From: Chloroherpetonaceae bacterium
GTDB taxonomy: Bacteria > Bacteroidota > Chlorobiia > Chlorobiales > Chloroherpetonaceae
Length of the DNA stretch: 42,057 bases
NCBI GenBank assembly: GCA_028277445.1
Contig: JANQGG010000041.1
Location: 1-42,057, forward strand
Reading direction: 5' to 3'
The notes beneath the pieces are model-generated. The model was given only the letters and a program-made list of their open reading frames with translations, was not told the origin of the DNA and did not search any database. Below are positions 3,878 through 22,592 of the stretch, piece by piece. The translations under genes were made by a program, and so were the position numbers. Numbering within the stretch: position 1 is the stretch's first letter; each line of letters starts with the position of its first letter.

Positions 3878-6800
3878 TTACTTCACCAGCATCATTTTCT
3901 TGATCTGGGTGAAGCTTCCACTTTGCAATCGGTAGAAATATACCCCTGACGCATACCCTCTCGCATCCCATCTCTGAATATGCGTTCCGGCTTTTAACTC
4001 ATCATTTAATAATGTTTTCACTTTTCTTCCCAAGATATCATACACCTCCAATACCGTTTTTCCTGGCTTTTGCAAACTAAACGTTATCGTCGTTACCGGA
4101 TTAAACGGATTCGGATAGTTTTGCTCTAAACTGTATGCTTCAGGGCGGGTAATTGATTTCGTCTCCAACACATTTCTCTTACCGGCAATATCCACATCCG
4201 ACAAACGATAGTAATAGGTCTCTCCATGCTTGAACTTGCCATAATCCACATACTGATAGCTTGTTTCCTGCGATACTGTTCCCTGACCTTTTAAATTTGA
4301 TGAGCTTTGATACGACGCCACTTGCTCGAATCCTTGGTTTGGTTGCATCGAGCGCTCCAGGATAAACCCTTGGTTATCAACCTCTGTGGCGGTTTTCCAG
4401 TTAAGCTTTACAGCATTGTCCTGGTTTTCCAAAGTATAAGACACCAATTCAACCGGCAACGGCGTATCCGAATCCGTAGTGGCCAGTGTAAAATAGCCAT
4501 CCGTAAGCTGTGCGTCGGTGAGATCAAAGATGATCTGATCGCCGCTTATGAATGTTGCTGTAACAACCTGAGAAAAGTCCCCGGTCTGGCCGGCTCGGCG
4601 AATTAGGATGTAATCGTTAGGATTAGCGCTAGGCGATGCACTTATGCTGGCATCGCTAAAATCAAACGTCAGCCGCGTATCCACTGATCCTGTTTTATCG
4701 ATGTACCACACCCTTTGCCATCGCTGTCCCGTTCCAGGAATTAATCCCATATCGTCTCCCGTTACTCCGTTCGTTGAACTCTTGTGGCCTGTAAATACAA
4801 ACTCTGCGCTATCGAGAGAATTGCTTATCTCTTGAATTAACAACCCTGCTGAATTACCGGCGCTTTGATGCACTTCACTGATCGAACCACCCAAATTTGC
4901 AATACCTTGAACATCCAAATCGTAATCGCCATTACCGGAATTATCCCCTGCATATTTATCATTTGCTCCCAAACTTATGCCAAATTTCGCGCCAAGATAG
5001 TTCTCAATAATAATCCTGCGCGCATCGCTTAAAGCTGATGTAAACTGTAAGAATTCAGCAATATCACCCTGAAATGGTTGGCCATTATTGTTAGCACCTG
5101 AAATATTTTTAAAACTATTTCCTGCATCCATATCTCCCAACGCGATTTCACCTGTGTGTGAATAAAGCTCACCAACGTTCGTACTGCTGCCGTTGGATTG
5201 AGAGCCATTTAAATAGGAAACAACAACCCCATCTAAATTCGACCCATCTCCTGTGTATTCGTATTTGAATGCCAGCACATACGATGTATTAGCCGACAAC
5301 CCTGCAGTTGAGGTGTAAACCGTGCCCCATTCATCGGTAGTCTCACCGGTTACTGCACCAGTGCTATAAACATTACAATAAAGAGAAGTACTGTTCATAT
5401 AAATATTGAGCCCATTTGTGCCGCCACCTTCTTCATAAAGCACTCTATCTCCGGATAAAGCTGTTGTGGTTGGTCTGAATACAAGAAATATAGTTCGTGC
5501 GTTTTGTGGCCCATCAGTGGTATTATCGTAGCTATTAATATCATCTACATTAGGGATTTCCAAAAGATTTGCCGATCCATCAAACCGAACCACTGGCATT
5601 CCATTCAAAGTATCGGTTATATATGTCGGAGCATTACTTGTAATGGCATCACGGTTTTCAGCAGTAACAATTTCTCGTCCTGAGAGATCATATAGTGTAT
5701 CAATAGTATTCCCTGTTCGGCTACTCCTTTCTGCTTTATACCATAAAACCAGATCCGAATTGCCTGTGGTGTCACCAACACCCCCTGGGCCATTTGTCCC
5801 ATAGAAATCTTCGTTGAGAATTGTGTAGGTGTATTGATTGTTTGTTCCAATCGAATCAATATTGGATGCATTAACAACGCTATCGATGACAATTATTATG
5901 GTTTCATCATCTTCAATATCAGAGTCTTCAGCGATTGATACACTAATATTTGCAGATGTTGAACCTGCTGAAATACTCAATGGGCTAGACGTGCTTAAAT
6001 TAAAATCAACGCCCGAAGATGCCGTTCCCGAACCTGATAACGAGAAATAGATATCTGTGGCGTAAACCGATGCCCTATCCAAATTAACTGTAAAATCCTT
6101 TGCGCGAATAGCTTCATCTTCGGATTCGCTTGTCGAAGCAAATTGAGCCACAAGGGTGTCGTTATCAGTATAAGTTATCGTATGAGTTGTACTACCAGTT
6201 TGCACCGTTGCATTTTGAACGCTATCTATTTGTACTAGAATATCTTCAGTACCTTCATTTAAGGTATCGGCAACGAGAAGAAGATTAATCAATGCGGAAG
6301 TATCACTAGCAGCCGGTCCTGAAATTGTAACCTGGCCATCGTTTAGATCTTTATAGTCTAAACTATCACCTGATGCTGATCCGGCAAACGAATAAAATAC
6401 ATTGATGTTTCCACCACCACCTTCACCGGCTGGAATAGATACTTCAATTTTTGCCGTATCCGAACCGGAATCCGTTTCTGTACGTGTATCGGCAAGGTTA
6501 GTGAATTTTACTTTTTTGGTGTTATCATCATCATTTATAGTAAGAGTAAACAATGAATCATTGCCAATTGAAGCATTGACGGCATTTCTTAAAACCAAAA
6601 TTACGGTTTCATCAACTTCAACATCTGAATCATTCACCAGACTATCAATCGGCGAAAATTCTATTGATGTGGTTCCGGCTGAAACGGTTTGCGTCCCCAA
6701 GTTAGAAAGCGTATCAACATCGCCGGTGGCAGGATCATTGGTTAGTGTTGCCGATCCCGACTTAAAGTCATAGTCTACTTGAACATTGCTCCCCCCGGCT

Positions 6801-9800
6801 GGATAGGGCCAGTTCAGTTCTATGGTAAATGACGGCGGCGGTGTAGTGCCTTCAACCACATTTGCTGATGTGGAAGAAAAATTAACCGTTCGTTTTATTG
6901 CGCCAAACGTAATGAAATCCCCATCGTTCAAGCTTAAATTATCCGTACTGTAATAATTACCGGAAACCGATGTTAAATCCACATGGCTTGCCCCACTTGT
7001 GAAATCGCCATCCGCATCCATGAAAATGGCAAAATTATCATAGCCCGAAGGCAACGCAAATCCTGTTAAATCAACGACTAAAGAATCAACACTATACGAT
7101 CCAACTCCAGTCATATCTACACGCCATTCACGAGCCATACGCTTGGAATTGGTTGAATCTTGATTTATAAACTCGGACGAAGCCCATCCTGAAACAGACC
7201 CATTATCGTGGCCAAAGAGTAGAAACTCACCATTAGTAAAATCATCATCCTTAAATTTCAATCGATCCGACTTAGCTGATAAATGCTGCGAACCATCCGA
7301 AGCTTGTCCGAGCCCCGAAACGTCTTGTGTATTTGAGGAGAGTTGATACAAGTCCGTTTCTTGTGCTGCGCCATATTTTGCCCCCAGATAATTCTCTACT
7401 ATTAATCGATGCGCATCACTCAATGCCGCATTATAAATCATCATTTCTCCTATATCGCCATCAAAAAACGAACCGCTAGTGGTTGTATTATCAGTCGTAT
7501 TCTCAAAACGTGTTCCATTCACAAGTGCGCCCAAGCCAATATTACCGGTATGATCGTACATGCGACCAACATTTGTTCCTGATCCGAACGATTTTCCATT
7601 TAAGTAGCCAACTAATTGACCATTAGTAGCATCGGAATGGCTATATTTTAAAGTCACCACGTAAGGCACACCTGCCGACAAACCTGTTGTATCAAAATAC
7701 ACTGATCCCCAAGGCGTGGTTGGTGTCGGATCAGAGGCATCATCAGAAGCGTCATTCCAAGCGTTGACATATAACGCATCATTTTTCAAATAAACACTAA
7801 ATCCGCGTGTGCCGCCGCCATCTTCATATAGGACCTGGGGGCTTGTTGTTACATTATCCGCCTTGAATGCAATCGTAATCGTTCGGGCTAGATAAGGCTC
7901 GCCACCCTCATTTATATCTGCATTATTTGCTATAGTGATGTAATCACTTGAACCATTAAACTGAATCGTAGGCTGGTTATTCATTGCTGAATTGCTACTT
8001 ACAAGTGTAGGCGTAGAGGCTTCTGGATCACCATCATTTGATCTTCCTGATTTATCTGCCCATGCAGTCACGTCAGTACCGCTTGTTGAAACCCCTTCAT
8101 CGGCTTTAAGCCAAACGACTAAACCATCACGGTTCAGTGTGTCACCTACGCCACCCGGGCCATATTCATCAAAAAAGGCAAGTTGAACAGTTGCCGAAGC
8201 TTCTCCGGAATAAACACCACTTCCGGTAACCGTCACCGTACCTTCATAAACACCCGATGTGGTTGGAGCGCCTGTTATAGTACCATCTGCATTTAATGTA
8301 AGAGTACCCGTTGGGGTTAAATCCCAAGCATATGAAAGGACGCCTGAAGCACTTATGCCGGCCGATAAGGTTACACTTGGCATTGCAGTTTGTATAGGCT
8401 GCCCATAAGAAATAGTTTGGGAATAATTCGAGTACGATAAAGCTGTAACTTGTGAAGTTATTGTAAATGAAAAGGCCTCGGCAAAAATTGAATCACCCAC
8501 TGAATTGTATGCTCTGACATCAATATCATAAACGCCTGGTGTCAATGAGCCATCCGCATATAATTTACCGGTTAAAGTATCAATAGAAATCCCACCACCG
8601 GAATATCCCGAACCATCTTTAGAAATATCAGAAATTACAATGCTATCTAAAGCTGTACCACCATCATCTATAGTTGGAACATTGGAACTATCGCTTGATC
8701 CAGACGTAAGCGTTAAAGTGCTTGGACTATATACGACGCTATTTGGCTTCGATGCTGTGCCAACTCGGCCTAATGTAAACACACTATCGCCCAACACAAT
8801 GTTATTAAACACCAATGTGTCTCCCGAAGTATATGACGTATCGTAGGAAGAAACGCTGGCATCATTGAATGTACCATCATCATCAACCAGTAACACAAAT
8901 TTTTGAGAAGGCGCAGTCGAATAACCAGCGGCATCAATCCTAACTGTTACCGGCCCGGTATTTCCAGTTGTATCCGCTGCCCATGAACGCTCAATTCTAT
9001 CTAAAACACCAGTCGGAACATCGAAAGAGCTAAAAGAAAACGACGCATTATTGTGACCAAATAACAAAAAGTCACCATTACTTAGCGACGGATTTACAAC
9101 GCCAACCTGATAAGAAAATACCGAATCCTGGCTGCCTGCCGTTTCCTGCCCAACACCGACCACATCTACATTAAACGACGCTTGAAAACTATACTTATCA
9201 TCAGGTATGGTTAAACCATATTTCGCTGCAAGTGCGTTTTCAATGATCGTGCGCTCAACATCGTTTAATGCTTTGCTAAATTGGATAAACTCTGCAATAT
9301 CGCCTTCAAAGTTATCACCGGATGCAACTTCCGACCCATCATGATACTGTCCGTTATTCAATATTCCTCCAATTCCAATATCACCGGCGTGACTGAGCAT
9401 TTCGCCAATACTGGAATTATCTATTCCAAAAGACACACCATTTAAAAATCCCTGTATACCATTTGTGCTATGAAATGTGAATGTAACGAGATATGTCGTA
9501 TTGGTCTGAATATTAACTGTATCAACATAAGTCGGACCCCAAACTGGCGTTTGTTCTACATAAGCGTTGACAAATAATGTGTCGTCGCTTAAGTAAATAT
9601 TTAATCCGTTAGTGTTTCCACCTTCTTCATAAAGCATCTGCCTTCCGGATAAATTGGCTGATGTACGAAAAACCATCATAAACGTACGCTCGGTCTGATT
9701 TACAGTCGGCGTATTCATATCATTATTATCGGCTATACCAAGTTCATCACTGGTACCATCAAAGCTTAATACCGGGAATCCATTGATTTGATTGGCCTGA

Positions 9801-10060
9801 AAATCAGGTTGATTGCCGCCAGTTGCTGTGGCATCATACCCTTTACCAGAAAGATCACTCCAAGAGCTAACCGGGTCGCCTGTAACACTTGAATCGGCTT
9901 TAAGCCACAAAATCAAATTTGAATTTCCATCTGTTGTCTCTACGCCACCCGGGCCGGTTTGAGCATTACATGGGGCTGTTATTACTAATGAACGAAGTAT
10001 TAACCCCCAACTTAAAAGCTTAAAGAAAGCCGTAAATTTATATTGTAAAGTTTTTTTCAT
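3878..10060 (-). CDS. Giant secreted modular protein, T9SS sorting domain, LamG-like and Calx-beta modules
   Basis: A 2060-residue protein predicted to leave the cell. It has a signal peptide (residues 1-33, basic start, hydrophobic core, CNA/Q cleavage). Three LamG-like concanavalin-fold modules each open with GPGGV and an ILWLKA/VVWLKA/VLWYKA strand, near residues 36, 635 and 1423. Each is followed by an FLLFGH or FVFTGH segment. Two Ig-like segments lie around 436-630 and three Calx-beta-like repeats around 1060, 1181 and 1301. A fibronectin-like segment lies near 1866. The last about 85 residues (LEQNYPNPFNPVTTITFSLQ to IKKMMLVK) are a type A sorting domain for type IX secretion, removed when the protein is attached at the surface. 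The modules suggest carbohydrate or surface adhesion; no catalytic domain is visible. A Bacteroidota-type promoter lies at 10242-10272. Confidence 0.93.
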   Translation of the reverse strand: MKKTLQYKFTAFFKLLSWGLILRSLVITAPCNAQTGPGGVETTDGNSNLILWLKADSSVTGDPVSSWSDLSGKGYDATATGGNQPDFQANQINGFPVLSFDGTSDELGIADNNDMNTPTVNQTERTFMMVFRTSANLSGRQMLYEEGGNTNGLNIYLSDDTLFVNAYVEQTPVWGPTYVDTVNIQTNTTYLVTFTFHSTNGIQGFLNGVSFGIDNSSIGEMLSHAGDIGIGGILNNGQYHDGSEVASGDNFEGDIAEFIQFSKALNDVERTIIENALAAKYGLTIPDDKYSFQASFNVDVVGVGQETAGSQDSVFSYQVGVVNPSLSNGDFLLFGHNNASFSFSSFDVPTGVLDRIERSWAADTTGNTGPVTVRIDAAGYSTAPSQKFVLLVDDDGTFNDASVSSYDTSYTSGDTLVFNNIVLGDSVFTLGRVGTASKPNSVVYSPSTLTLTSGSSDSSNVPTIDDGGTALDSIVISDISKDGSGYSGGGISIDTLTGKLYADGSLTPGVYDIDVRAYNSVGDSIFAEAFSFTITSQVTALSYSNYSQTISYGQPIQTAMPSVTLSAGISASGVLSYAWDLTPTGTLTLNADGTITGAPTTSGVYEGTVTVTGSGVYSGEASATVQLAFFDEYGPGGVGDTLNRDGLVVWLKADEGVSTSGTDVTAWADKSGRSNDGDPEASTPTLVSSNSAMNNQPTIQFNGSSDYITIANNADINEGGEPYLARTITIAFKADNVTTSPQVLYEDGGGTRGFSVYLKNDALYVNAWNDASDDASDPTPTTPWGSVYFDTTGLSAGVPYVVTLKYSHSDATNGQLVGYLNGKSFGSGTNVGRMYDHTGNIGLGALVNGTRFENTTDNTTTSGSFFDGDIGEMMIYNAALSDAHRLIVENYLGAKYGAAQETDLYQLSSNTQDVSGLGQASDGSQHLSAKSDRLKFKDDDFTNGEFLLFGHDNGSVSGWASSEFINQDSTNSKRMAREWRVDMTGVGSYSVDSLVVDLTGFALPSGYDNFAIFMDADGDFTSGASHVDLTSVSGNYYSTDNLSLNDGDFITFGAIKRTVNFSSTSANVVEGTTPPPSFTIELNWPYPAGGSNVQVDYDFKSGSATLTNDPATGDVDTLSNLGTQTVSAGTTSIEFSPIDSLVNDSDVEVDETVILVLRNAVNASIGNDSLFTLTINDDDNTKKVKFTNLADTRTETDSGSDTAKIEVSIPAGEGGGGNINVFYSFAGSASGDSLDYKDLNDGQVTISGPAASDTSALINLLLVADTLNEGTEDILVQIDSVQNATVQTGSTTHTITYTDNDTLVAQFASTSESEDEAIRAKDFTVNLDRASVYATDIYFSLSGSGTASSGVDFNLSTSSPLSISAGSTSANISVSIAEDSDIEDDETIIIVIDSVVNASNIDSIGTNNQYTYTILNEDFYGTNGPGGVGDTTGNSDLVLWYKAERSSRTGNTIDTLYDLSGREIVTAENRDAITSNAPTYITDTLNGMPVVRFDGSANLLEIPNVDDINSYDNTTDGPQNARTIFLVFRPTTTALSGDRVLYEEGGGTNGLNIYMNSTSLYCNVYSTGAVTGETTDEWGTVYTSTAGLSANTSYVLAFKYEYTGDGSNLDGVVVSYLNGSQSNGSSTNVGELYSHTGEIALGDMDAGNSFKNISGANNNGQPFQGDIAEFLQFTSALSDARRIIIENYLGAKFGISLGANDKYAGDNSGNGDYDLDVQGIANLGGSISEVHQSAGNSAGLLIQEISNSLDSAEFVFTGHKSSTNGVTGDDMGLIPGTGQRWQRVWYIDKTGSVDTRLTFDFSDASISASPSANPNDYILIRRAGQTGDFSQVVTATFISGDQIIFDLTDAQLTDGYFTLATTDSDTPLPVELVSYTLENQDNAVKLNWKTATEVDNQGFILERSMQPNQGFEQVASYQSSSNLKGQGTVSQETSYQYVDYGKFKHGETYYYRLSDVDIAGKRNVLETKSITRPEAYSLEQNYPNPFNPVTTITFSLQKPGKTVLEVYDILGRKVKTLLNDELKAGTHIQRWDARGYASGVYFYRLQSGSFTQIKKMMLVK

Positions 10061-10530: not shown

Positions 10531-12126
10531 TCAATTTCCACTCACTGTTTTTAGGCTTTCAAAGAAACCGGGTTCGGCAAACGCTTGGGTTAAAAAATAA
10601 CCTAAAATCCCCCCGGTTGTTGCGCATAAGGTATTAACAACATCATTATCAATCCACCTTATGCCTTTTTGAAGCTCGTTTTCTATAAGCTCGCCGTTTT
10701 CTTTTCGGCTGTGGGTTCGCTCGGTAGTTTTCTTGCGAATCGGATCATAGTATTGTGCTTGAAGGGTGGCGCCAAAAAAGCTATCCACCAAGCTGCCTCC
10801 CGCTCCGGCAATTCCAACAATTAAAAACGATTGTACAACGCCTATACTCATCATTTTTTCCGGAGCTATTATCCAGGCGCTAACGCAAATTAACAATGCG
10901 CCTACAAATCCGCCAAACGTTCCTGTAAAGGTAATGCCTCCCGATGTACCAGCTGGAACGGGTTTAAAATTTAAAATAAAACGGGGTTTCGGGTCTTTAA
11001 TCATCGTTCCGATCTCGGTTGCCCATGTATCGGCCTGAACTGCTGCCAACGTTCCCAAATAGGCTAAATAGATTAACGGGTCTTGCGCAAATGAGAACCA
11101 GATCATGAGCGCCCAGGCAACGCCGCCGTTGGCTAAAACTTGACCCACATCGCGCTGCGAAGACTTTTCAAATATCAAATCATATTTTTTCTTATGCTCT
11201 TTACCAATTTTTGAAAGGATTGAAGAAAGCAGAAAAAACGTTAAGACCGGAATGGTCCAATCAAGGCCGCCCATGCCAAAAATATTTGAACCGAAAAGAA
11301 ACGTGCCTACAGCCCCGCTTGCCGTTAAGAACTTCAATGCAAACGACACTCTGGCAAAAATTAACGCCGCGCTCACGCCAATCATTACGCTTTGGAACAT
11401 AACCGCGCCGTTCAGTTCCAAAACCAACAAGATATAAGCGGCGCTAAGCGGTATAAACAAGTTATCCATGCCGCCCGATAGCAAGGCTTCTACGGCGGTT
11501 ACCACTAAGGCAATTGCAATGCAAAGGGCTATTAACGACGTTAAACTTAAAGAGCTGATAATTTCGGATTTATCAATAAAGAAGATTAATGAGCCCACCA
11601 ATACAAATACCGAAGTCACAAACATAGCCACAGAGCCTTCTATGGTTTTTTTGTGAGCCATTAATTTGAACGTGTGCGGCTTTTCACTACTCTCCCCTAC
11701 TAACGCGGCAATCGCGTCTCCAAAACCCAATACAAGCATAGAGGTTTGCAGAATCCACACATGCTCACCCCAACAAGACAAGGTTAGGATAAAAAACGCC
11801 AGCGGGTAATACACTGTCCCGTAACTGGGCGATTGCACTTCATTTTCATCGTCATAATGAACGCCATGTAAGGAAGACAGCCAGTTATTTTTAATCGCCA
11901 GTAAATTTAGAGGAATAAATATCAGTGTGATTAACGCCGGGTAAAAATTGGATTCAAAATAATAGGGCGAAAAAAAGATTAAAACGCTTGTTAAGATGTG
12001 AACAAATTTTCGCGTAGAGCTTGGTTTAAAATTTAGCGTTTTTTTTAGAACTTCCGACACGGCAACCAAAGCTGCTAATAATGCTAATGCAATACTGAAA
12101 CTGGAGAAATCCTGAGAAAAGGTCAT
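10531..12126 (-). CDS. Fused phytol/polyprenol kinase and phytyl-phosphate kinase (VTE5-like + DUF92/VTE6-like)
   Basis: A 531-residue membrane protein with two halves. Residues about 1-240 resemble the VTE5/SEC59 CTP-dependent prenol kinase family: RKFVHILTS near residue 40, then FGDAIAALVGE and HKKTIEGSVAMF around residues 135-165, among several membrane helices. Residues about 245-531 are DUF92 (VTE6-like): QVLANGGVAWAL, AAVQADTWATEIG, AGTSGGITFTGTFGG, GAGGSLVDSFFGATLQ and NDVVNTLCATTGGILGY. In plants and cyanobacteria VTE5 phosphorylates phytol and VTE6 makes phytyl diphosphate for quinone or tocopherol synthesis. A fusion would carry out both steps. The substrate here (phytol, farnesol or another prenol) is inferred. 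It is apparently monocistronic. The start is an ATG with no clear ribosome binding site. Confidence 0.85.
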   Translation of the reverse strand: MTFSQDFSSFSIALALLAALVAVSEVLKKTLNFKPSSTRKFVHILTSVLIFFSPYYFESNFYPALITLIFIPLNLLAIKNNWLSSLHGVHYDDENEVQSPSYGTVYYPLAFFILTLSCWGEHVWILQTSMLVLGFGDAIAALVGESSEKPHTFKLMAHKKTIEGSVAMFVTSVFVLVGSLIFFIDKSEIISSLSLTSLIALCIAIALVVTAVEALLSGGMDNLFIPLSAAYILLVLELNGAVMFQSVMIGVSAALIFARVSFALKFLTASGAVGTFLFGSNIFGMGGLDWTIPVLTFFLLSSILSKIGKEHKKKYDLIFEKSSQRDVGQVLANGGVAWALMIWFSFAQDPLIYLAYLGTLAAVQADTWATEIGTMIKDPKPRFILNFKPVPAGTSGGITFTGTFGGFVGALLICVSAWIIAPEKMMSIGVVQSFLIVGIAGAGGSLVDSFFGATLQAQYYDPIRKKTTERTHSRKENGELIENELQKGIRWIDNDVVNTLCATTGGILGYFLTQAFAEPGFFESLKTVSGN

Positions 12127-12370: not shown

Positions 12371-12401
12371 TTGTTAAAAACAAAACAAATGGCTATATTT
12401 G
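12371..12401 (+). promoter_or_regulatory. Bacteroidota-type promoter of the ilv-leu operon
   Basis: TTG (12371-12373), a 20-nt A-rich spacer and TATATTTG (12394-12401) match the Bacteroidota -33/-7 consensus. Transcription should start near 12406-12408, about 25 nt before the leader ORF and 305 nt before ilvD. The layout is identical to the promoters at 10242 and 27342. Confidence 0.65.
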
Positions 12402-12431
12402 CAAAAGTTTTATTGGATTAACCTAAAGCAA

Positions 12432-12599
12432 ATGCCACAATTTTTTATGAACAGCGCTTTCAAACATAATTCGGTTTTCTCAAAAACGCCGAAGCGTGCT
12501 GTCAGATTCTTGCCTTCCATTTTAGCTCAGTCAGGGACTTTTGTTTTAGGTCTTCAAAATCTAGTCGTGCTACTAAGCCTTATTATTATTGTAAAATAA
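12432..12599 (+). CDS. Putative branched-chain amino acid leader peptide of the ilv operon
   Basis: A 55-codon ORF starting at the ATG at 12432, with a second in-frame ATG at 12447. It lies just downstream of the predicted ilv promoter and ends 112 nt before ilvD. Its last codons encode VLGLQNLVVLLSLIIIV-K-stop: 13 of 17 consecutive residues are Leu, Val or Ile, using seven different codons plus three ATT in a row. The rest of the peptide is unremarkable. This is the hallmark of ribosome-stalling leader peptides such as the enterobacterial ilvL. The peptide itself probably has no function; its translation would sense charged tRNA-Leu, -Val and -Ile. A membrane-peptide explanation for the hydrophobic end is possible but fits the position less well. 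Confidence 0.6.
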   Translation: MPQFFMNSAFKHNSVFSKTPKRAVRFLPSILAQSGTFVLGLQNLVVLLSLIIIVK

Positions 12600-12688
12600 T
12601 CGGTACGGTTGTCCCTGAAATTCTTGATATATCACATTCATAATCACATACACAAGACTTCGGGGTTGGCCGAAATCCGACGCTTTTT
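12531..12688 (+). promoter_or_regulatory. Candidate transcription attenuator of the ilv-leu operon
   Basis: Four segments can pair in alternative ways. Segment 1, TCAGGGAC (12531-12538, in the leader ORF just before the Leu/Val/Ile codons), pairs perfectly with segment 2, GTCCCTGA (12611-12618, just after the ORF stop). Segment 2 can instead use CCCTGAA (12613-12619) to pair with segment 3, TTCGGGG (12659-12665), giving 7 bp with one G-T. Segment 3 can instead use TTCGG to pair with CCGAA (12670-12674), or GTTGG (12665-12669) with CCGAC (12677-12681); the second hairpin is followed by GC and five T (12684-12688). This gives a 1:2, 2:3, 3:4 switch. The terminator stem is short and is the weakest part of the model. 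Confidence 0.5.
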
Positions 12689-12711
12689 AATTACTAAAAG
12701 TTTAGCGTATC

Positions 12712-14388
12712 GTGAGATCAGACATTATTAAACTTGGCTTCGACAAAGCGCCACACCGTAGCTTGCTGAAAGCAACCGGGGTAATTCAATCTGATGAAGA
12801 TTTTCAGAAACCGTTTATCGGCATAGCCAATTCTTACATCGACATCATTCCTGGCCACGTTCATTTGCAGGAATTTGGCAAGGTAGTTAAACAAACCATC
12901 AGAGACGCGGGCGGCATACCTTTTGAATTCAATACGATAGGGGTTGACGACGGCATTGCTATGGGTCATATCGGTATGCGCTACTCGCTGGCAAGCCGTG
13001 AGTTAATTGCCGATGCCGTTGAAACTGTCATACAAGCGCATTGGTTGGATGGCATGGTTTGCATCCCCAATTGCGATAAAATTGTTCCCGGAATGATGAT
13101 GGCCGCCGTTCGTTTAGACATCCCAACGATTTTTGTTTCGGGCGGGCCAATGAAAGCTGGCGTAACTTCAAACGGCCAAAAGGTTGATTTGATCTCGGTT
13201 TTTGAAGGCGTTGGCGAGTATAGCGCCGGGAAAATTAACGACGCGCAGTTAAAAGAACTTGAAAATCATGGATGCCCGACTTGTGGGTCCTGCTCAGGCA
13301 TGTTTACGGCAAATTCCATGAATTGCCTGGCCGAAGCGCTTGGTTTGGCGCTTCCCGGAAACGGGACCATTTTAGCCGTTGATCCGCGACGGGAAAATTT
13401 AGCTAAAAAAGCGGCGTCACAAATTATGACATTGGTTGAACAGGATACCAAACCAAGCAATATTCTTACAGAGTCGTCATTTAGAAATGCCTTTGCTTTG
13501 GACTTGGCTATGGGTGGCAGCACCAATACCATTTTGCATACGCTAGCCATTGCTAATGAGGCAGGTATTCATGTTGAACTTGATGATCTTAATCGTTTAG
13601 CCGAAAAAACGCCGTATATTTGTAAAGTAAGTCCGGCCTCGAAAACCGTTCATATAGAAGATGTTGAAGAAGCTGGCGGTATTTCTGCCATTTTAAATGA
13701 ACTTTCAAAAATACCGGATTTATTGGATACGGAAAGGCTGACGGTAACAGGAAAAACATTGGGTGAAAATATCCGGGATTCATCAATTCTTAATGAAACC
13801 GTTATTCGATCCATTGACGACCCTTATTCCAAAACTGGCGGTTTGGCCGTTCTTTTTGGCAATCTTGCCCCACACGGATGCGTGGTGAAAACCGGGGCTG
13901 TGGATCCAAACATGATGCAACACAGCGGCCCGGCAAGGATTTATGAATCGCAGGATGATGCCATCAATGGAATACTTGATGGAGAGGTTCATGCCGGAGA
14001 AGTTGTTATCATAAGATATGAAGGCCCTAAAGGCGGCCCTGGCATGCCGGAAATGCTGGCTCCAACAAGCGCCATTATGGGTCAGGGGTTAGGCGATAAA
14101 GTTGCTTTAATTACCGATGGTCGTTTTTCAGGCGGTACCCGAGGTGCATGTATTGGTCATGTTTCTCCGGAAGCAGCTGAAGGCGGACCTATTGCAGCGG
14201 TGCAAAATGGCGATATCATTACCATAGATATCCCTAAGCGTTTGATCAAGGTTGAACTTTCTGATGATGAAATCAATGATCGCCTGAACCAACTGCCGGA
14301 ATTTCGACCAAAAATTTCCAAAGGCTATTTAGCTCGATATGCAAAAATGGTAACATCAGCCAATACTGGCGCTATCTTAAAAATTTGA
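12712..14388 (+). CDS. ilvD: Dihydroxy-acid dehydratase
   Basis: Iron-sulfur enzyme that dehydrates 2,3-dihydroxy-isovalerate and 2,3-dihydroxy-3-methylvalerate to the 2-keto acids, the common third step of valine and isoleucine synthesis. The 558-residue product has the expected start [18 protein letters not shown], the cysteine motifs CIPNCDK (about residue 119) and [18 protein letters not shown] (about 187-204) that bind the cluster, and the late [19 protein letters not shown] block. The start is GTG at 12712, chosen because the family begins MRSD and no better codon is upstream. It is the first structural gene after the candidate attenuator, with ilvB 30 nt downstream. Confidence 0.97.
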
Positions 14389-14418: not shown

Positions 14419-16137
14419 ATGAGTACAAAAGGACAAACATTACTTGGCGCTGAAATCTTTTTTGAGTGCCTTAAAAAAGAAGGTGTAGACTATATCTTTG
14501 GCTATCCTGGTGGTGCGTTGTTAAAAATATATGAAAAGCTCTATGATGTGGATCATCTTAAACATATTCTGGTTCGTCACGAACAAGGCGCTACGCATAT
14601 GGCTGAAGGTTATGCCCGAGCCACAGGAAAAGTCGGTGTGGTTTTGGTTACTTCCGGTCCCGGCGCTACAAATACTGTTACCGGTATTGCCAATGCATAT
14701 ATGGACTCCTCGCCCATTGTTGTTTTTACCGGGCAGGTTCCAACCCATTTAATCGGCAACGATGCGTTCCAGGAAGCTGACATTTTGGGCATCACACGTC
14801 CGATTACAAAGTATAATTTTTTGGTTAAAGACATTAAGGAGTTAGCGCCAACCATACGCAAAGCCTTTTATTTGGCCAAAAGTGGCCGACCAGGTCCGGT
14901 TTTAGTTGATCTGCCGAAGGATGTCATGAATCAATCATGCGCGTTCCATTTCCAGGATAAAGTTGATATCCGAGGATACAAACCGACATTCCAGGGGCAT
15001 TCCAAGCAGATTAAAAAAGCTGCGTCGAAAATACTTCACGCCAAACGCCCGCTGTTGTATGTCGGCGGTGGTGTTATAATGTCCGAAGCGGCCAAAGAGC
15101 TCACATTTTTTGCTCAATCCAAAAATATTCCGGTGACTACAACCCTTCAGGGATTAGGCGCATTTCCGGGCGATGAACCATTATCGTTGGGGATGCTCGG
15201 CATGCATGGTACGTATTGGGCAAATCAAGCGGTCAGCAATTGCGATGTCATGATCTCACTTGGCGCAAGATTTGATGATCGCGTAACCGGTAAATTGGAA
15301 ACATTTTCACCGAATTCATACAAAATTCATGTGGATATTGATCCGACAAACATTGATAAAAATATTTTGGTTGATTTACCGATTGTCGGCGATGTGAAAC
15401 ACATTTTAAGCGAACTTATTGTTGAGCTTAACGATGCGCCCGATACCAAGGAATGGCTCGCGCAAATAGATGGATGGCGTAAAGAATGTCCGCTGCATTA
15501 TGAAACCGGTGATGGAAAGCTCAGAACGGAATACGTTTTAGAGCGCATTACCGAAAAAACCAATCACAATGCCGTGGTGGTTGGCGATGTAGGACAGCAT
15601 CAAATGTGGATTGCGCAATACATAAAATTCAATTCACCTCGCACGCAAATCAGCAGCGCCGGGTTAGGAACCATGGGCTTTTCACTACCGGCTGCAATTG
15701 GCGCTGCGTTCGGGATAAAAGACAAACCGGTGTTTTCAATCAGTGGCGACGGCGGTTTCATGATGAATATCCAGGAGCTGAATACGGCGGCTTATAATAA
15801 GCTCCCGCTCAAAATTGTCCTGATCAACAACAGTTATCTCGGCATGGTTCGTCAATGGCAGGAGCTGTTCCACGATCAAAAGTACAGCTTTACCAATCTT
15901 TCGGAAATGAATCCGGAATATCAGAAAGTTGTTGAATCGTTCGGTATCCCGTCGATGTCAACCGATAACCCGGATGAAGTTGATGGCATAATTGATAAAA
16001 TGCTGGCATACAACGATGGCCCGATCTTTGCCGAGTTCAAAGTGGTTAAAGAAGATATGGTATTTCCAATGGTGCCGGCTGGCGCTTCAATTTCTGATAT
16101 GATGATTAAACGACTTAATCCTAAAACTTTTGTATAG
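14419..16137 (+). CDS. ilvB: Acetolactate synthase, large (catalytic) subunit
   Basis: TPP- and FAD-dependent enzyme that condenses two pyruvates to acetolactate, or pyruvate with 2-ketobutyrate to acetohydroxybutyrate, the first common step to valine/leucine and isoleucine. The 572-residue product has the three usual domains: the N-terminal TPP domain with the catalytic glutamate in VRHEQGATHMAEGYARATG (about residues 52-70), the central FAD-binding domain, and the C-terminal TPP domain with the GDGGFMMNIQEL...INNSYLG Mg-TPP motif (about 442-475). Length is normal. It sits 30 nt after ilvD and 2 nt before ilvN, so the two subunits are translationally close. Confidence 0.97.
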   Translation: MSTKGQTLLGAEIFFECLKKEGVDYIFGYPGGALLKIYEKLYDVDHLKHILVRHEQGATHMAEGYARATGKVGVVLVTSGPGATNTVTGIANAYMDSSPIVVFTGQVPTHLIGNDAFQEADILGITRPITKYNFLVKDIKELAPTIRKAFYLAKSGRPGPVLVDLPKDVMNQSCAFHFQDKVDIRGYKPTFQGHSKQIKKAASKILHAKRPLLYVGGGVIMSEAAKELTFFAQSKNIPVTTTLQGLGAFPGDEPLSLGMLGMHGTYWANQAVSNCDVMISLGARFDDRVTGKLETFSPNSYKIHVDIDPTNIDKNILVDLPIVGDVKHILSELIVELNDAPDTKEWLAQIDGWRKECPLHYETGDGKLRTEYVLERITEKTNHNAVVVGDVGQHQMWIAQYIKFNSPRTQISSAGLGTMGFSLPAAIGAAFGIKDKPVFSISGDGGFMMNIQELNTAAYNKLPLKIVLINNSYLGMVRQWQELFHDQKYSFTNLSEMNPEYQKVVESFGIPSMSTDNPDEVDGIIDKMLAYNDGPIFAEFKVVKEDMVFPMVPAGASISDMMIKRLNPKTFV

Positions 16138-16139
16138 CT

Positions 16140-16664
16140 ATGAAGCACACGATCTCAGTACTTGTAGAAAATAAATTTGGCGCATTAAACCGTGTTGCTG
16201 CAATGTTTAGCGCAAGAGGGTTTAATTTGGAAAGTATCGCCATCGGGGAAACCGAAGACCCGGGAATTTCCCGAATGACTATTGTAACCAGGGGTGATGA
16301 TAAGATCATTGGTCAGATCGTCAAACAGCTCAATCGTCTTATTGATACCCTAAAGGTGGTTGATTTAACCGACGCACTGAAAATTGAACGCGAATTGGCG
16401 TTGATCTCTATCGGTTATCATAAATCGAACCGGTCGGAAATTATTAGCCTTTGCGAAATCTTTAAAGCCAATGTCATTGATATTACGCCGAAAGCCATTA
16501 CGGTAGAAATTGTCGGCACGCCCGATAAAATTGAATCGGCCATTAAAATCTTTTTACCATTTGGCATTCGCGAAATTGCCCGTTCCGGCGTTGTTGCGCT
16601 TTCACGAAACGAACCGGTTATTGTAAAAACATCTAAAGAAACTAATGGAACTTTAACCACTTAA
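16140..16664 (+). CDS. ilvN: Acetolactate synthase, small (regulatory) subunit
   Basis: Regulatory subunit that stabilises and activates IlvB and in most bacteria confers valine feedback inhibition. The 174-residue protein starts with an ACT domain (MKHTISVLVENKFGALNRVAAMFSARGFNLESIAIG, with the ligand-binding asparagine/glycine region in NKFGALNRV) and has a second ACT-like half from about residue 80 (ERELALISIGYHKSNRSEIISLCEIFKANVIDI). The length is typical. It starts 2 nt after the ilvB stop. Valine sensitivity is likely from the family but not proved here. Confidence 0.96.
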   Translation: MKHTISVLVENKFGALNRVAAMFSARGFNLESIAIGETEDPGISRMTIVTRGDDKIIGQIVKQLNRLIDTLKVVDLTDALKIERELALISIGYHKSNRSEIISLCEIFKANVIDITPKAITVEIVGTPDKIESAIKIFLPFGIREIARSGVVALSRNEPVIVKTSKETNGTLTT

Positions 16665-16688: not shown

Positions 16689-17705
16689 ATGAAAGTTTAC
16701 TATGAGAACGACGCTGATCTTTCCTTATTGGAAGGCAAAAAAATTGCTGTTTTGGGATTCGGCAGTCAGGGCCATGCCCATTCCTTGAATCTGAAAGATA
16801 GCGGCATGAATGTTTGTGTTGGCTTAAAAGAAGGCAGCAGTTCATGGCCCAAGGCAGAGCAAGCCGGATTAACCGTTAAAAAAACATCCGAAGCTGTAGC
16901 CTGGGCTGATATCATCATGGTCTTGATTCCCGACCAGGTTCAAAAATCGGTTTACGAATCCGACATTGCGCCAAATCTTCAGGCTGGAAACACCTTATGC
17001 TTCGGTCATGGCTTCAACATTCATTACAAACAAATTGAACCGCCACAGGATATTAATGTTATAATGATTGCGCCAAAAAGCCCTGGTCATTTGGTGAGGA
17101 GAACCTTTACCGAAGGCGCCGGCGTGCCATGCCTGATTGCCGTTCATCAAAATGCAGACGGTAAAGCGAAAGACATTGCATTAGCATGGGCAAAAGGCCT
17201 TGGCGGAACCAAAGCCGGCGTTATTGAAACCAATTTCAAAGATGAAACCGAAACCGATCTGTTTGGCGAGCAGGCCGTTCTATGCGGCGGTTCGGCCGAG
17301 CTGATCAAAGCCGGATTCGAAACCTTGGTTGAAGGCGGCTACCCTGCCGAATTGGCGTATTTTGAGTGCATGCATGAACTGAAGCTTATTGTTGATCTAT
17401 ACTACGAAGGCGGCCTTACCCGTATGAATTATTCGGTTAGCGACACAGCCGAATACGGCGGAATGACTCGCGGTTCAAAAGTGATCGGCAAAGAAGCCAA
17501 AGAGAACATGAAACAAATCCTTAAGGATATTCAAAACGGATCGTTCGCCAAAGAGTTTATTGATGAGTGTAACAGCGGTTACCCAAACATGCAAGCGCTC
17601 AGAAAAGAAAATTCGGAGCATGCAATTGAAAAAGTTGGCGCCAAACTTCGTGAAATGATGAGTTGGCTTTTTAAGAAAAATAAAAAAGAAGAAGTGGGCG
17701 TATGA
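16689..17705 (+). CDS. ilvC: Ketol-acid reductoisomerase
   Basis: NADPH-dependent isomeroreductase converting acetolactate and acetohydroxybutyrate to the dihydroxy acids used by IlvD. The 338 residues match the short class I enzyme. The Rossmann motif [17 protein letters not shown] is at about residues 23-39 and the cofactor-specificity loop is [15 protein letters not shown], whose serines are typical of NADPH preference. The metal-binding carboxylates are in [14 protein letters not shown] (about residues 190-200) and [14 protein letters not shown] (about 225-238). Its TGA overlaps the leuB ATG (ATGA), so the two are translationally coupled. Confidence 0.97.
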
Positions 17706-18787
17706 CTTGGAAAATCGTATCCTTACCCGGTGATGGGATCGGACAGGAAGTGGTTGCTTCGGCAACTACATTTTTAACACTGTTGGCTGAAAAGCTTCAG
17801 CTGACCTTAGATATCGAAAACCATTTATTTGGTGGCGCTTCATACGATGTTCACGGCAAAATGCTTACCGATGAAACCTTGGAAGCATGCAAAAATGCTG
17901 ATGCGGTATTGCTTGGCGCTGTTGGCGGGCCAAAATGGGAAAATCTGCCCCATAACGAAAAACCCGAAGCCGGATTATTGAAGCTTCGCAAAGAGCTGGG
18001 GCTGTATGCCAATATCCGTCCGGCAAAAGTTTATAATGCGTTAAGCAATGCGTCTACTTTAAAGCAGGATGTGCTTCAAGGCACTGATTTTGTGGTCGTT
18101 CGGGAGCTAACCGGCGGCATATACTTTGGCCACCCAAGAGGTTACGACGAGGAAAAAGGCTACAACACCATGGTGTATGAAAAATACGAGGTGGAACGCA
18201 TTGCCAAACAAGCGTTTGAACTGGCTCGCAAACGCCATCATAAAGTCACCTCGATTGATAAAGCCAATGTGCTGGAAGTTTCACAATTCTGGCGGCACAT
18301 TGTGCATGACGTGCATAAATCGTACCCGGATGTTGAGTTGGTAGATATGTATGTGGATAATGCGGCCATGCAGGTTGTCCGAGATCCAAAACAATTTGAT
18401 GTGATCGTTACAAGTAACTTATTTGGCGATATCATCAGTGATATTTCAGGGATGATCACCGGTAGCCTGGGGATGTTGCCATCGGCCAGCCTTGGCGATA
18501 AATACGCGCTTTATGAGCCGATCCACGGTAGCGCGCCTGATATTGCCGGGCAAAACAAAGCCAACCCATTGGCGACCATTGCTTCAGTGGCCATGATGTT
18601 TGAAAGCAGTTTCAACAGGCCTGATATTGCCAAATTCATCATTGAAGCTATTGAAAAAACGCTTGCAAAAGGTTATCGCACCGGTGATATAATGGGCGAA
18701 GGCGGAAAATGTGTCAGCACTACCGAGATCACAGCGCATTTAATTGAGTCGTTCAACGAAGTTTATGCGGCGGAACATCAACTATAA
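17702..18787 (+). CDS. leuB: 3-Isopropylmalate dehydrogenase
   Basis: NAD- and Mg-dependent oxidative decarboxylase of 3-isopropylmalate in leucine synthesis. In organisms using the citramalate route it also acts on 3-methylmalate, which would tie it to cimA at the end of the operon. The 361-residue protein shows [11 protein letters not shown] at the start, the [20 protein letters not shown] region, the substrate-binding [10 protein letters not shown] (about residues 138-147), the catalytic [11 protein letters not shown] (about 188-198), the metal aspartates in [10 protein letters not shown] (about 240-250) and the NAD-binding [19 protein letters not shown]. Its start overlaps the ilvC stop. 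Toxin-antitoxin remnants follow 24 nt later. Confidence 0.97.
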
Positions 18788-18811: not shown

Positions 18812-19098
18812 ATGTTAATTTTTGAATGGGATACAAACAAAGCTAAAAGTAATAAGCAAAAGCATGGCATTACATTTGATGAAGCCTGTTCAGTATTTGC
18901 CGATCCATTATCTTTGACGATATACGATCCCATTCATTCCATGAAAGAAGATCGATTTGTTATAATTGGAATGTCAAATATAAATCGAACATTAACTGTT
19001 GTTCATGCTGATCGGGGTGAAAAATTAGAATAATAAGTGCGAGAAAATCCACAAAAAAAGAGAGAAAACATTATGAAAGCGATGAAAAACGATCCTGA
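18812..19098 (+). pseudogene. brnT: BrnT-family toxin, frameshifted
   Basis: BrnT is a RelE-like ribonuclease toxin of type II systems, normally about 90-95 residues. The frame from the ATG at 18812 gives MLIFEWDTNKAKSNKQKHGITFDEACSVFADPL and continues to HADRGEKLE, then stops at 19031-19033 after 73 residues. Shifting back one base at about 19027 restores the missing family C-terminus, RIISARKSTKKERKHYES, ending at 19098 and overlapping brnA by 26 nt, the usual arrangement. A single-base loss therefore removes the conserved C-terminal arm. The toxin is probably dead unless the break is a sequencing error. No canonical slippery heptamer is present. Confidence 0.8.
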
Positions 19099-19288
19099 TA
19101 TGTTGGATGAATATGATTTTACCAAAGGCAAGCGTGGAAAGTACGTTGAACGGTTTAAAGAAGGCTGTAATGTTGTTGTAATAGAACCCGATATTTGTAA
19201 ATATTTTCCGAATCATGATGCGGTTAATTCGGTCTTACGTTCTTTAATACCAGAATTGAAAAGAACACAACAACAAAAAACTGATTAA
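19073..19288 (+). CDS. brnA: BrnA-family antitoxin
   Basis: Antitoxin partner of BrnT, a small protein whose C-terminal ribbon-helix-helix part normally binds DNA and represses the operon. From the ATG at 19073 the product has 71 residues: MKAMKNDPDMLDEYDFTKGKRGKYVERFKEGCNVVVIEPDICKYFPNHDAVNSVLRSLI. The DEYDF...RGKY segment and the FPNHDAVNSVLRSL helix are typical. A longer in-frame start exists at 19037, but the overlap with the full-length brnT frame favours 19073. The antitoxin frame is intact although its toxin is frameshifted, the order of decay expected when a toxin is lost first. Confidence 0.78.
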   Translation: MKAMKNDPDMLDEYDFTKGKRGKYVERFKEGCNVVVIEPDICKYFPNHDAVNSVLRSLIPELKRTQQQKTD

Positions 19289-19309
19289 AGTCTATCGGGA
19301 GATTGATGT

Positions 19310-19399
19310 TTGAAGCAGATATATTTTAGCAGACATGCTAAAAAACAAATGAAATGGCGAAATATTTCTGAAGATGAAGTTCGTCAAACCATTTTCATC
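19310..19399 (+). pseudogene. N-terminal remnant of a DUF4258 toxin-like gene
   Basis: Starting from a TTG at 19310, the first 30 codons read KQIYFSRHAKKQMKWRNISE followed by DEVRQTIF. This is the N-terminal motif (SRHAKKQMKWRxISE) of DUF4258 proteins, which are usually about 75-100 residues and often paired with DUF2283 genes. The frame runs directly into the DUF2283 gene without the rest of the DUF4258 domain, as though an in-frame deletion removed the toxin body. It cannot be functional as a DUF4258 protein. The fused product would be 103 residues if translated from here. Confidence 0.65.
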
Positions 19400-19621
19400 A
19401 TGAAAATAGAATATGATCAAGAAGTAGATGTGTTATACATCCGAATACAGGAAACAGAAGTGTTTAGAACGCAAGAAGTTGAAGAAGGGATAAACTTAGA
19501 TTTTGATGAAGATAGCAAAATTATTGGTTTGGAAATTATTGGCGCTAAAGAACGGTATAACAAAAAAGATATCTTCAATATTGCAACCGAAAATTTAACC
19601 TTAGATCAAGGGTGTTCCTAA
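19400..19621 (+). CDS. DUF2283 family protein
   Basis: From the ATG at 19400 the product has 73 residues, the normal length for DUF2283: MKIEYDQEVDVLYIRIQETE, then EEGINLDFDEDSKIIGLEIIGAKERYN. The DVLYI and GI-L-FD-D-KIIGLEI blocks are the family signature. DUF2283 proteins are small, unassigned and frequently encoded beside DUF4258 genes; a role as an antitoxin-like partner is inference. The frame continues upstream without a stop into the DUF4258 remnant, so translation could start at 19310 and give a fusion. The gene lies between leuB and leuA, 93 nt before leuA. Confidence 0.72.
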   Translation: MKIEYDQEVDVLYIRIQETEVFRTQEVEEGINLDFDEDSKIIGLEIIGAKERYNKKDIFNIATENLTLDQGCS

Positions 19622-19714: not shown

Positions 19715-21280
19715 ATGAAAGACAAAGAAAAAATATGGATTTTCGATACGACTCTGCGAGATGGTGAACAATCACCCGGCGCTTCATTAAGCACCCAGGA
19801 AAAAGTTGAAATTGCACGGCAGCTCGAAAAGCTGAATGTTGATATTGTAGAAGCCGGTTTTCCTATTTCTTCTTCGGTTCAGTTCGAAGCCGTTCAACGT
19901 ATTGCCGGTGAAGTAGGTATTACGGTCGCTGGTTTAGCACGCGCTAAAGAAGCTGATATTAAATCCGCTTACGACGCGCTTAAGGATGCTAAAAAAGCAA
20001 GAATTCACACTTTCTCAAGCACATCCGATATTCACATTCTTGGGAAGTTTGGCGATGAACGCTATGGCCGGACACTGGAAGAAAAGCGCCAAATGGTTAT
20101 AAAAATGACCATAGACGCGGTTACTTATGCCAAATCACTTGTGGATGATGTTGAGTTTTCAGCTGAAGATGCCGGAAGAACCGATATTGGTTATTTGAGC
20201 GATGTCATTGAAGCGGCCATCGGCGCTGGCGCAACAACGGTAAATATTCCCGATACCACCGGTTACACATTACCTAAGGAGTTTGGCGAAAAAATTGCCG
20301 AGCTCAAAAAGCGCGTGCCAAATATCAATGATGCGATAATCAGCGTGCATTGCCATAACGACCTTGGCCTTGCCGTAGCAAATTCATTAGGCGCTTTGGA
20401 AAATGGCGCCCGGCAGGTTGAATGCACTATTAATGGCATTGGCGAGCGCGCCGGAAATGCTTCGATGGAAGAAATTGTCATGGCGCTTAAAGTCAGGGGC
20501 GATCTGGTGAATTACTATACCGATATCAACACCCATGAAATTTACAATTCAAGCCGGATGGTTTCGGTTTATACCGGTTTGATCGTTCAGCCCAACAAAG
20601 CTATCGTTGGAGATAATGCCTTTGCACATGAATCGGGAATTCACCAGGATGGCATGTTAAAAAATCGGCAAACCTACGAAGTGATGACGCCCGAATCGGT
20701 AGGCGTGCCGCAAACCAAGATTGTTTTGGGACGGCATTCGGGTAGGCACGGCTTAAAATCACGATTGGTTGAATTAGGCTACAAGTTATCCGAAGAAGAG
20801 ATTCAGGCGGTTTATGAAAAATTTTCAGCATTAGCCGATAAGAAAAAAGAAATTTATGACGAAGATCTGCGCATGCTAATGGGCGATGAAATGTTCAAGG
20901 GTTTTGAAAAATATACCTTGGAATATTTACATGTTTCAAGCGGATCGAATTCCATACCAACATCTACGGTGATCATAAAAACCGCAGATCGCTCCATTCA
21001 GGAGTCTTCAACCGGCGATGGCCCGGTGGATGCATGTTTTAAAGCAATTGAACGCGCGTTGAACATTAAACCTTCTTTAAATTCTTACAGTGTCCGCTCA
21101 ATTACTTCAGGCCGTCAGGCCATGGGCGAAGCGTTGGTAAGGATTGCAGAAGGCCAAAAACATTTTACCGGTCGTGGTGTTTCAACCGACATTATTGAAG
21201 CCAGCGCCAAAGCGTATTTGCAGGCTTTATGTTTGAAAGATGAATACATGACTAACAATCAAGATTTAGTAACCATTTAA
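19715..21280 (+). CDS. leuA: 2-Isopropylmalate synthase
   Basis: First committed enzyme of leucine synthesis: acetyl-CoA plus 2-ketoisovalerate gives 2-isopropylmalate. The 521-residue product has the DRE-TIM barrel signature FDTTLRDGEQSPGASLS at about residues 10-26, VSVHCHNDLGLAVANSLGALENGARQVECTINGIGERAGNASMEE-type metal and substrate motifs at about 208-250, and a C-terminal LeuA dimer/regulatory domain from about residue 370, the usual site of leucine feedback inhibition. It follows the toxin-antitoxin remnants by 93 nt, where I see no clear promoter, and precedes leuC by 16 nt. Confidence 0.96.
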   Translation: MKDKEKIWIFDTTLRDGEQSPGASLSTQEKVEIARQLEKLNVDIVEAGFPISSSVQFEAVQRIAGEVGITVAGLARAKEADIKSAYDALKDAKKARIHTFSSTSDIHILGKFGDERYGRTLEEKRQMVIKMTIDAVTYAKSLVDDVEFSAEDAGRTDIGYLSDVIEAAIGAGATTVNIPDTTGYTLPKEFGEKIAELKKRVPNINDAIISVHCHNDLGLAVANSLGALENGARQVECTINGIGERAGNASMEEIVMALKVRGDLVNYYTDINTHEIYNSSRMVSVYTGLIVQPNKAIVGDNAFAHESGIHQDGMLKNRQTYEVMTPESVGVPQTKIVLGRHSGRHGLKSRLVELGYKLSEEEIQAVYEKFSALADKKKEIYDEDLRMLMGDEMFKGFEKYTLEYLHVSSGSNSIPTSTVIIKTADRSIQESSTGDGPVDACFKAIERALNIKPSLNSYSVRSITSGRQAMGEALVRIAEGQKHFTGRGVSTDIIEASAKAYLQALCLKDEYMTNNQDLVTI

Positions 21281-21296
21281 CGATAAGCATTGAACA

Positions 21297-22592
21297 ATGG
21301 CACAAACCATTACACAGAAGATTTTAGCAAAGTCGGCAAAGCGTAAAACCGTTGAACCGGGTGAAAGCGTTTGGCTGAATGTAGATGTATTGATGACCCA
21401 CGATGTTTGCGGGCCGCCAACCATTGGTATCTGGAAACGGGAATTTGGGGAAAACGCAAAAATATTTGACAAGGAAAAACTCGTGATTTTTCCCGATCAT
21501 TATATTTTCACAGAAAATGAACATGCAAATCGCAACATCAATATCTTACGCGATTTTGCCAAAGAATACGATGTCCCGAATTATTATGATGTGGGTTCGG
21601 AGCGTTATAAAGGCGTTTGCCACATCGCCCTCGCTGAAGAAGGCTATAATGTTCCCGGCACGGTTTTGTTTGGTTCAGACTCACACACCTGTACATCCGG
21701 TGCATTTGGGATGTTTTCAACCGGTGTTGGCAATACCGATGCAGCGTTCATTTTAGGAACAGGTAAAATTTGGGAAAAAGTCCCGGAATCCATGAAGTTT
21801 ATTTTTGATGGTCAGATGCCTGATTATCTGACAGCCAAAGATCTGATCCTTCAGATTTTAGGCGATATTACCACTGACGGCGCAACATACAGAGCCATGG
21901 AATTTGATGGCGAGGCTGTCTATTCACTTTCTATGGAAGAACGCATGACGCTGACCAATATGGCTATCGAAGGCGGCGCAATGAGCGGCATTATTGCTGC
22001 CGATAGCGTTTGCGAAGCTTATGTTAAAGAACGTACATCAAAACCGTATGAGATTTTCAATAGCGATCCTGATGCAAAATACTATGCGACCTATCGCTAC
22101 GATGTCAGTAAAATGGAACCAACGGTAGCTAAACCCCACAGCCCTGACAATCGCGATGTTGTTCGTAACGTGGCTGGCACAAAACTCACCAAATGCTACA
22201 TTGGGTCATGTACCGGCGGTAAACTAACCGACTTTGCATTTGCGGCTAAAATGCTTCGCGGGCGCGAAGTAAAAGTCCCGACGTTTATTGTCCCAGGCAG
22301 CACCTTGGTTGATAAACAGCTTTCGGAAGAAACCATTGATGGCCTGTCCTATAAAGATATCTTTCTAAACGCCGGATGTGATATAGCTGAATCAAGCTGC
22401 GCAGCTTGTTTGGGCGGCCCTTCCGATACTGTTGGTCGTAGCTCGGACGGCGATATTGTAATTTCTACCACAAACCGAAATTTCCCCGGACGTATGGGCA
22501 GCAAGAAGTCCGAGGTTTACCTGGCTTCGCCGCTGACTGTGGCCGCTTCAGCCTTAACCGGAGTTATTACAGATCCGAGAGATTTTCTATAA
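21297..22592 (+). CDS. leuC: 3-Isopropylmalate dehydratase, large subunit
   Basis: Catalytic subunit of the [4Fe-4S] isomerase that converts 2- to 3-isopropylmalate; in the citramalate route the same enzyme isomerises citramalate. The product has 431 residues, closer to the short archaeal-type/LeuC2 form (about 420) than to the 465-residue enterobacterial form. Motifs include SDSHTCTSGAFGMFSTGVGNTD at about residues 123-144, TKCYIGSCTGGKLTDF (first cluster cysteine, about 300) and ESSCAACLGGPSD (the C-x2-C pair, about 363). leuD follows after 36 nt. Confidence 0.95.
   Translation: MAQTITQKILAKSAKRKTVEPGESVWLNVDVLMTHDVCGPPTIGIWKREFGENAKIFDKEKLVIFPDHYIFTENEHANRNINILRDFAKEYDVPNYYDVGSERYKGVCHIALAEEGYNVPGTVLFGSDSHTCTSGAFGMFSTGVGNTDAAFILGTGKIWEKVPESMKFIFDGQMPDYLTAKDLILQILGDITTDGATYRAMEFDGEAVYSLSMEERMTLTNMAIEGGAMSGIIAADSVCEAYVKERTSKPYEIFNSDPDAKYYATYRYDVSKMEPTVAKPHSPDNRDVVRNVAGTKLTKCYIGSCTGGKLTDFAFAAKMLRGREVKVPTFIVPGSTLVDKQLSEETIDGLSYKDIFLNAGCDIAESSCAACLGGPSDTVGRSSDGDIVISTTNRNFPGRMGSKKSEVYLASPLTVAASALTGVITDPRDFL

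Follow-up and report, generated by a model that had tools for sequence, protein, structure and literature searches.

How the synthesis of leucine, isoleucine and valine is controlled in green sulfur bacteria and their relatives is the question raised by the 42,057-nucleotide stretch analysed here (the window), which comes from a Chloroherpetonaceae bacterium with a genome of 3.42 Mb. From position 12712 onward its forward strand carries the series ilvD-ilvB-ilvH-ilvC-leuB-leuA-leuC-leuD-cimA, with names taken from NCBIfam (Table 1). An earlier note on this DNA had proposed an ilv-leu operon led by ilvD, which stands with the start of ilvD amended to a GTG at 12712, and had read 12371-12711 as an attenuator with a Leu/Val/Ile leader peptide. 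We consider it probable (about 0.85) that this region acts as a ribosome-mediated attenuator controlling transcription of the ilv-leu genes, a reading supported by conservation of the leader ORF, covariation of the helix formed by segments 2 and 3 (2:3) and the spacing kept between its parts. It would provide a simple prediction of what controls this pathway in these bacteria, and would extend textbook ribosome-mediated attenuation to them with comparative support.

At the upstream end, the promoter-like sequence at 12371-12399 agrees with the consensus at 9 of 12 positions, which alone is no better than shuffles; the promoter match claimed earlier is weak by score and agrees in position, as a perfect TTGACA-N17-TATAAT is found at the same place ahead of the leader ORF in two relatives (L146 and L154). 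The 55-codon ORF with 13 branched-chain codons in 17, three ATT in a row among them, is present as had been described. These control codons include three rare CTA leucine codons, and the run ends in ATT ATT ATT GTA. Counted over the final 17 codons of the leader, 12 of 17 encode Ile, Leu or Val, a number that no ORF attained in 3000 dinucleotide shuffles of the 400-nt region upstream of ilvD. CTA accounts for three of the eight leucine codons of the leader versus 5.6% of leucine codons in the genes of the window. A Pfam search with the leader peptide matched no family.

Table 1. Positions of the leader elements and of the ilv-leu genes in the window
Feature	Position	Strand	Remark
Candidate promoter, TTGTTA-N17-TATATT(TG)	12371-12399	+	Weak alone; position agrees with relatives
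Leader peptide ORF, 55 codons (MPQFFMNSAFKHNSVFSKTPKRAVRFLPSILAQSGTFVLGLQNLVVLLSLIIIVK)	12432-12599	+	ATG 12432 to TAA 12599
Control codons, 13 Leu/Val/Ile in 17	12543-12593	+	Codons 38-54
Segment 1 (TCAGGGAC)	12531-12538	+	Complements 12611-12618; not conserved beyond the family
Segment 2 (CGGUUGUCCCUGAA)	12606-12619	+	Begins 7 nt past the leader stop
Segment 3 (UUCGGGGUUGGCCG)	12659-12672	+	Antiterminator partner of segment 2
Segment 3:4 hairpin, putative terminator stem	12665-12681	+	GUUGG/CCGAC, with GG/CU extension 12662-12663 / 12683-12684
U5 tract of putative terminator	12684-12688	+	After the 3:4 stem
ilvD, dihydroxy-acid dehydratase	12712-14388	+	First gene of the series; TIGR00110
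ilvB, acetolactate synthase large subunit	14419-16137	+	TIGR00118
ilvH, acetolactate synthase small subunit	16140-16664	+	TIGR00119
ilvC, ketol-acid reductoisomerase	16689-17705	+	TIGR00465
leuB, 3-isopropylmalate dehydrogenase	17702-18787	+	TIGR00169
leuA, 2-isopropylmalate synthase	19715-21280	+	TIGR00973
leuC-type isopropylmalate dehydratase large subunit	21297-22592	+	NF001614
leuD-type isopropylmalate dehydratase small subunit	22629-23189	+	TIGR02087
cimA, citramalate synthase	23213-24814	+	TIGR00977

Downstream of the leader stop, segment 2 pairs with segment 3 in two parts, CGGUU (12606-12610) with GGCCG (12668-12672) and CCCUGAA (12613-12619) with UUCGGGG (12659-12665); the pairing is the one claimed earlier, with segment 2 extended from 8 to 14 nt. 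Segment 3 also pairs with segment 4, GUUGG (12665-12669) with CCGAC (12677-12681), which gives the five-pair terminator stem before T5 that had been described, or seven pairs if the GG/CU extension past one mismatch is allowed. As bases 12665-12669 are common to both, the 2:3 and 3:4 pairings are mutually exclusive. The fold of 12600-12692 is better than expected from shuffles (z = -2.9), one of 200 shuffles being equally good. An alternative window terminator, UCGGG (12660-12664) with UCCGA (12676-12680), corresponds in position to the Chlorobium terminator; it was rejected on energy (p 0.00), GUUGG/CCGAC being preferred here. The exact complementarity noted earlier between TCAGGGAC (12531-12538) and GTCCCTGA (12611-12618) is real in the window, with 8 pairs, but 40 relatives show no tendency towards it (mean z +0.3). 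Being confined to the window and the family neighbour, it was rejected as a conserved element, so that the core comprises the leader plus 2:3 and 3:4.

On the proposed mechanism, a ribosome would translate the 55-codon ORF as RNA polymerase makes the leader. If charged tRNA-Leu, tRNA-Val and tRNA-Ile were plentiful, it would arrive at the stop codon (12597-12599) and cover about 12 nt beyond; a footprint reaching as far as 12 nt past the stop codon has been described for the ribosome (PMC4833913), and this stretch includes the CGGUU of segment 2. With segment 3 then free, the GUUGG/CCGAC hairpin could form before U5, and transcription would terminate near 12688. If a branched-chain tRNA were uncharged, the ribosome would stall within 12543-12593 and leave segment 2 (12606-12619) exposed to pair with segment 3 (12659-12672), and transcription would continue into ilvD and the later genes.

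Evidence for the leader comes from comparison within the order Chlorobiales, where 76% of 62 ilvD upstream regions have an ORF whose last 17 codons include 9 or more for Ile, Leu or Val, against 2.4% of shuffles; the conserved L/V/I-rich ORF end that the earlier note looked to in relatives is thus present. Nearly all of these ORFs stop about 108-130 nt upstream of ilvD, and the leader of the family neighbour (L082) ends in ...LPLVRLTLVLVGIIICL. The N-terminal part is hardly conserved among relatives, and substitutions at the three codon positions, counted over disjoint pairs (56/48/54), give no clear third-position excess; codon-position bias was therefore dropped as proof of coding. A flat pattern and a variable N-terminus are expected if control codons alone matter. 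The argument for coding thus comes from composition, frame and the place of the stop codon, and leader translation is something that we infer, as are the stalling, the termination and any dominance of one of the three amino acids. A comparison of frames agrees with coding and is partly circular, the ORFs having been chosen for their Ile/Leu/Val content. The element is missing or degraded in a few Chlorobiales genomes: four small-genome Chlorobiaceae (L111, L114, L115 and L120; G052, G024, G012 and G033) have ilvD with no recognisable leader, and the RNA model finds no match there or a very weak one, which suggests secondary loss.

The putative intrinsic terminator of the window has its U5 and a weak stem, the five pairs of 3:4 alone being no better than shuffles (z about 0), and its predicted behaviour changes with the state of segment 2. 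When segment 2 is free the GUUGG/CCGAC hairpin has a probability of 0.00; if the first 12 or 14 nt past the stop codon are masked, as by a terminating ribosome, this becomes 0.66 or 0.99. The equivalent hairpin of L082 goes from 0.00 to 0.52 or 0.95 under the same masking, and such a switch occurs in 25 of 1500 shuffles (1.7%). Folding with competing constraints, the check suggested earlier, hence agrees with a thermodynamic switch in which masking turns the terminator hairpin on. The hairpin is stronger in Chlorobiaceae, for example CUUCGGGA/UCCCGAAG followed by UUUCUUUUUU in L088, and as equilibrium there already favours the terminator, antitermination would have to be kinetic.

It is conceivable that the same leader switch controls translation of ilvD and not termination, with structure near the GTG, or 3:4 itself, blocking initiation. 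Another order of the phylum does have a start-codon hairpin in place of the terminator, and in the window ACGCUUUUUA (12680-12689) can pair with UAAAAGUUUAGCGU (end about 12707), just upstream of the GTG; however, this pairing is no better than shuffles (z -1.1) and none was seen by eye in L082. Moreover, 6 or more U in 8 nt stand beside 3:4 in 49 of 53 Chlorobiales sequences, and this U-run lies directly after the hairpin, about 28-38 nt upstream of the ilvD start, a position that argues against blocked initiation and makes it an unlikely output for the window.

Covariation of the 2:3 helix, which the earlier note had named as a check, is found at both depths of comparison. In the order alignment of 40 sequences (the window and 39 relatives), 89.5% of cells are paired and 13 show double changes, versus 4.4 after shuffling (0 of 500 shuffles), a compensatory change from G-C to U-A at columns 19/83 being one example. 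Phylum-wide (29 sequences) the values are 88% and 19, versus 8.5 (again 0 of 500), and the changes include GGUUAACCC/GGGUUAACC and GGUCGAUCCC/GGGGUCGACC. The wider expectation of covariation across all four segments did not hold, as 1:2 is not conserved and 3:4 shows no covariation in Chlorobiales, where segment 3 is invariant. Segment 2 mostly starts 5-10 nt past the leader stop, and the spacing of stop, segment 2 and segment 3 is kept phylum-wide. Of the 61 genomes of the class, 53 had exactly one match to a covariance model built from the order alignment, and each match lay immediately upstream of ilvD; the model had been trained on 40 of the matched sequences, so that what the search adds is that there is one copy and where it lies. 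Five of the eight genomes with no match have no ilvD. Within the window's own genome the model matched 12597-12697 only (E 6e-4), the next best hit (2.5) being at chance level.

The high conservation of segment 3 within Chlorobiales could also be expected of a metabolite riboswitch or a protein-binding element beside which the ORF is incidental. Against this, searches of Rfam at gathering and lax thresholds gave chance matches only and no riboswitch, T-box or known leader family; deep conservation of structure is limited to a single helix, whose loop varies and which is accompanied by no unpaired core shared among relatives, and where relatives retain the helix an Ile/Leu/Val-rich ORF stops just before it, all of which makes such an element very improbable. 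A constitutive terminator or chance structure with no regulatory role, for which the weakness of the hairpin alone and the roughly one terminator-like site expected by chance in the scanned region might speak, is negligible in view of the element's conservation and covariation and of the upstream gene (10531-12126), which lies on the opposite strand and leaves nothing there to terminate.

Reading upstream of ilvD, located by IlvD searches, revealed the same design beyond the order, in families f10, f33 and f46 and in f20, f28, f30, f56 and f57 of a GC-rich order: an Ile/Leu/Val-rich ORF whose stop is followed after 5-10 nt by GGUCAAUCCC or a sequence like it, then by a loop that varies and by GGGRUUGACC. 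The ilvD upstream regions read in families f15, f7, f22, f29 and f44 have no such leader. Ile/Leu/Val-rich leaders also precede ilvD in metagenome-assembled genomes labelled Caldithrix, Marinimicrobia, Anaerolineae and Gemmatimonadetes, some with conventional terminators. None of the 25 leader-bearing upstream regions of the GC-rich order has a U-run (no 8 nt with more than 4 U), and in 22 hand-cut stretches a hairpin at segment 3 stops 2-20 nt short of the start codon (median 13); loci of this kind are L203, L205-L209, L213-L223 and L226, in the order of G317. The missing U-run and the start-proximal hairpin make an intrinsic terminator unlikely there. Blocked translation initiation is the simplest reading of this output, and Rho-dependent termination is an alternative. 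Tentatively, and at slightly less than even odds, we propose one ancestral ilvD leader-peptide switch (stop, GGUCAAYCC..., GGGRUUGACC), present across much of the phylum, whose sensing half has stayed fixed as its output was exchanged, a terminator with U-run in Chlorobia and, in the GC-rich order, a start-abutting hairpin through which a ribosome stalling on the leader would control translation initiation in an amino-acid-specific way. The phylum-wide series would then be a natural experiment, with one RNA switch core and different outputs. In family f10 (L146-L158, L234-L246), a conserved (G)UAUAUCUGAAG often takes the place of the U-run behind segment 4; by eye, its UCUGAA can pair in some members with the UUCAGAGG found where the ribosome would bind ahead of ilvD, the version in L146 being UCUAA/UUAGAGG.

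Leader-peptide attenuators of ilvGMEDA, ilvBN and leuABCD are established in enterobacteria, where the leaders have roughly 16-32 codons. The window resembles them in having an Ile/Leu/Val-rich leader ORF ahead of branched-chain pathway genes, a stop just before segment 2, and exclusive 2:3 antiterminator and 3:4 terminator pairings with a U-run; it differs in the 55 codons of its leader, in control codons that run almost up to the stop, and in phylum. The 1:2 protector hairpin, which belongs to the enterobacterial models and is not conserved in Chlorobiales, is auxiliary, as 2:3 and 3:4 suffice. Two experimentally studied attenuators are also comparable. The Staphylococcus aureus ilvD leader likewise has a peptide rich in branched-chain amino acids before ilvD and the ilv-leu operon and a terminator hairpin tens of nucleotides past the stop, although its peptide has 26 residues, CodY exerts additional control, and the proposed antiterminator pairs with the U-tract and leaves the terminator stem intact (PMC5794164). 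The Corynebacterium ilvB-II motif shares a conserved Ile/Leu/Val-rich uORF with terminator and antiterminator stems, whereas that uORF has 15-17 aa, overlaps P1 and precedes ilvB in Actinobacteria (PMC10272879). Elements of the same class were predicted by comparative genomics by Naville and Gautheret 2010 (PMC2965389). The earlier note knew of no ilv attenuator described in this phylum, and the literature searched yielded none in Chlorobi/Chlorobia. The abstract of Vitreschak 2004 reportedly names Bacteroidetes/Chlorobi, and both that paper and Lopatovskaya 2010 reportedly give comparative predictions for the same class of element; an earlier prediction of such attenuation for Chlorobia may therefore exist. 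Ribosome-mediated attenuation itself is known, and the novel part would be the proposed exchange of output between orders.

Other amino acid pathways of the phylum have similar leaders. In f10 and f33 genomes, leaders ahead of hisG (L178, L179) read KIHTGNWHHHYNYF and LYHHNHHHYF, with the His runs WHHHY and YHHNHHHY, and those ahead of trpE (L184, L185) read NHWWWWRS and SWWWHCK, with the Trp runs WWWW and WWW; control by leader peptides is thus at home in the phylum. No clear hisG or trpE leader was seen in the window's own genome, in G001 of the same family or in two Chlorobiaceae.

As regards the surroundings, the gap between leuB and leuA (18812-19621), inside the ilv-leu series, holds a BrnT toxin gene (18812-19033; PF04365), an adjoining ORF (19037-19288) at the position of an antitoxin, and a DUF4258/DUF2283 ORF. 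On the reverse strand, 3878-10060 encodes a repeat protein of 2060 residues that looks secreted, and its tail, of the NPFNPVTTI...KTVLEVYDILGRKV kind, resembles by eye the usual sorting signals for type IX secretion.
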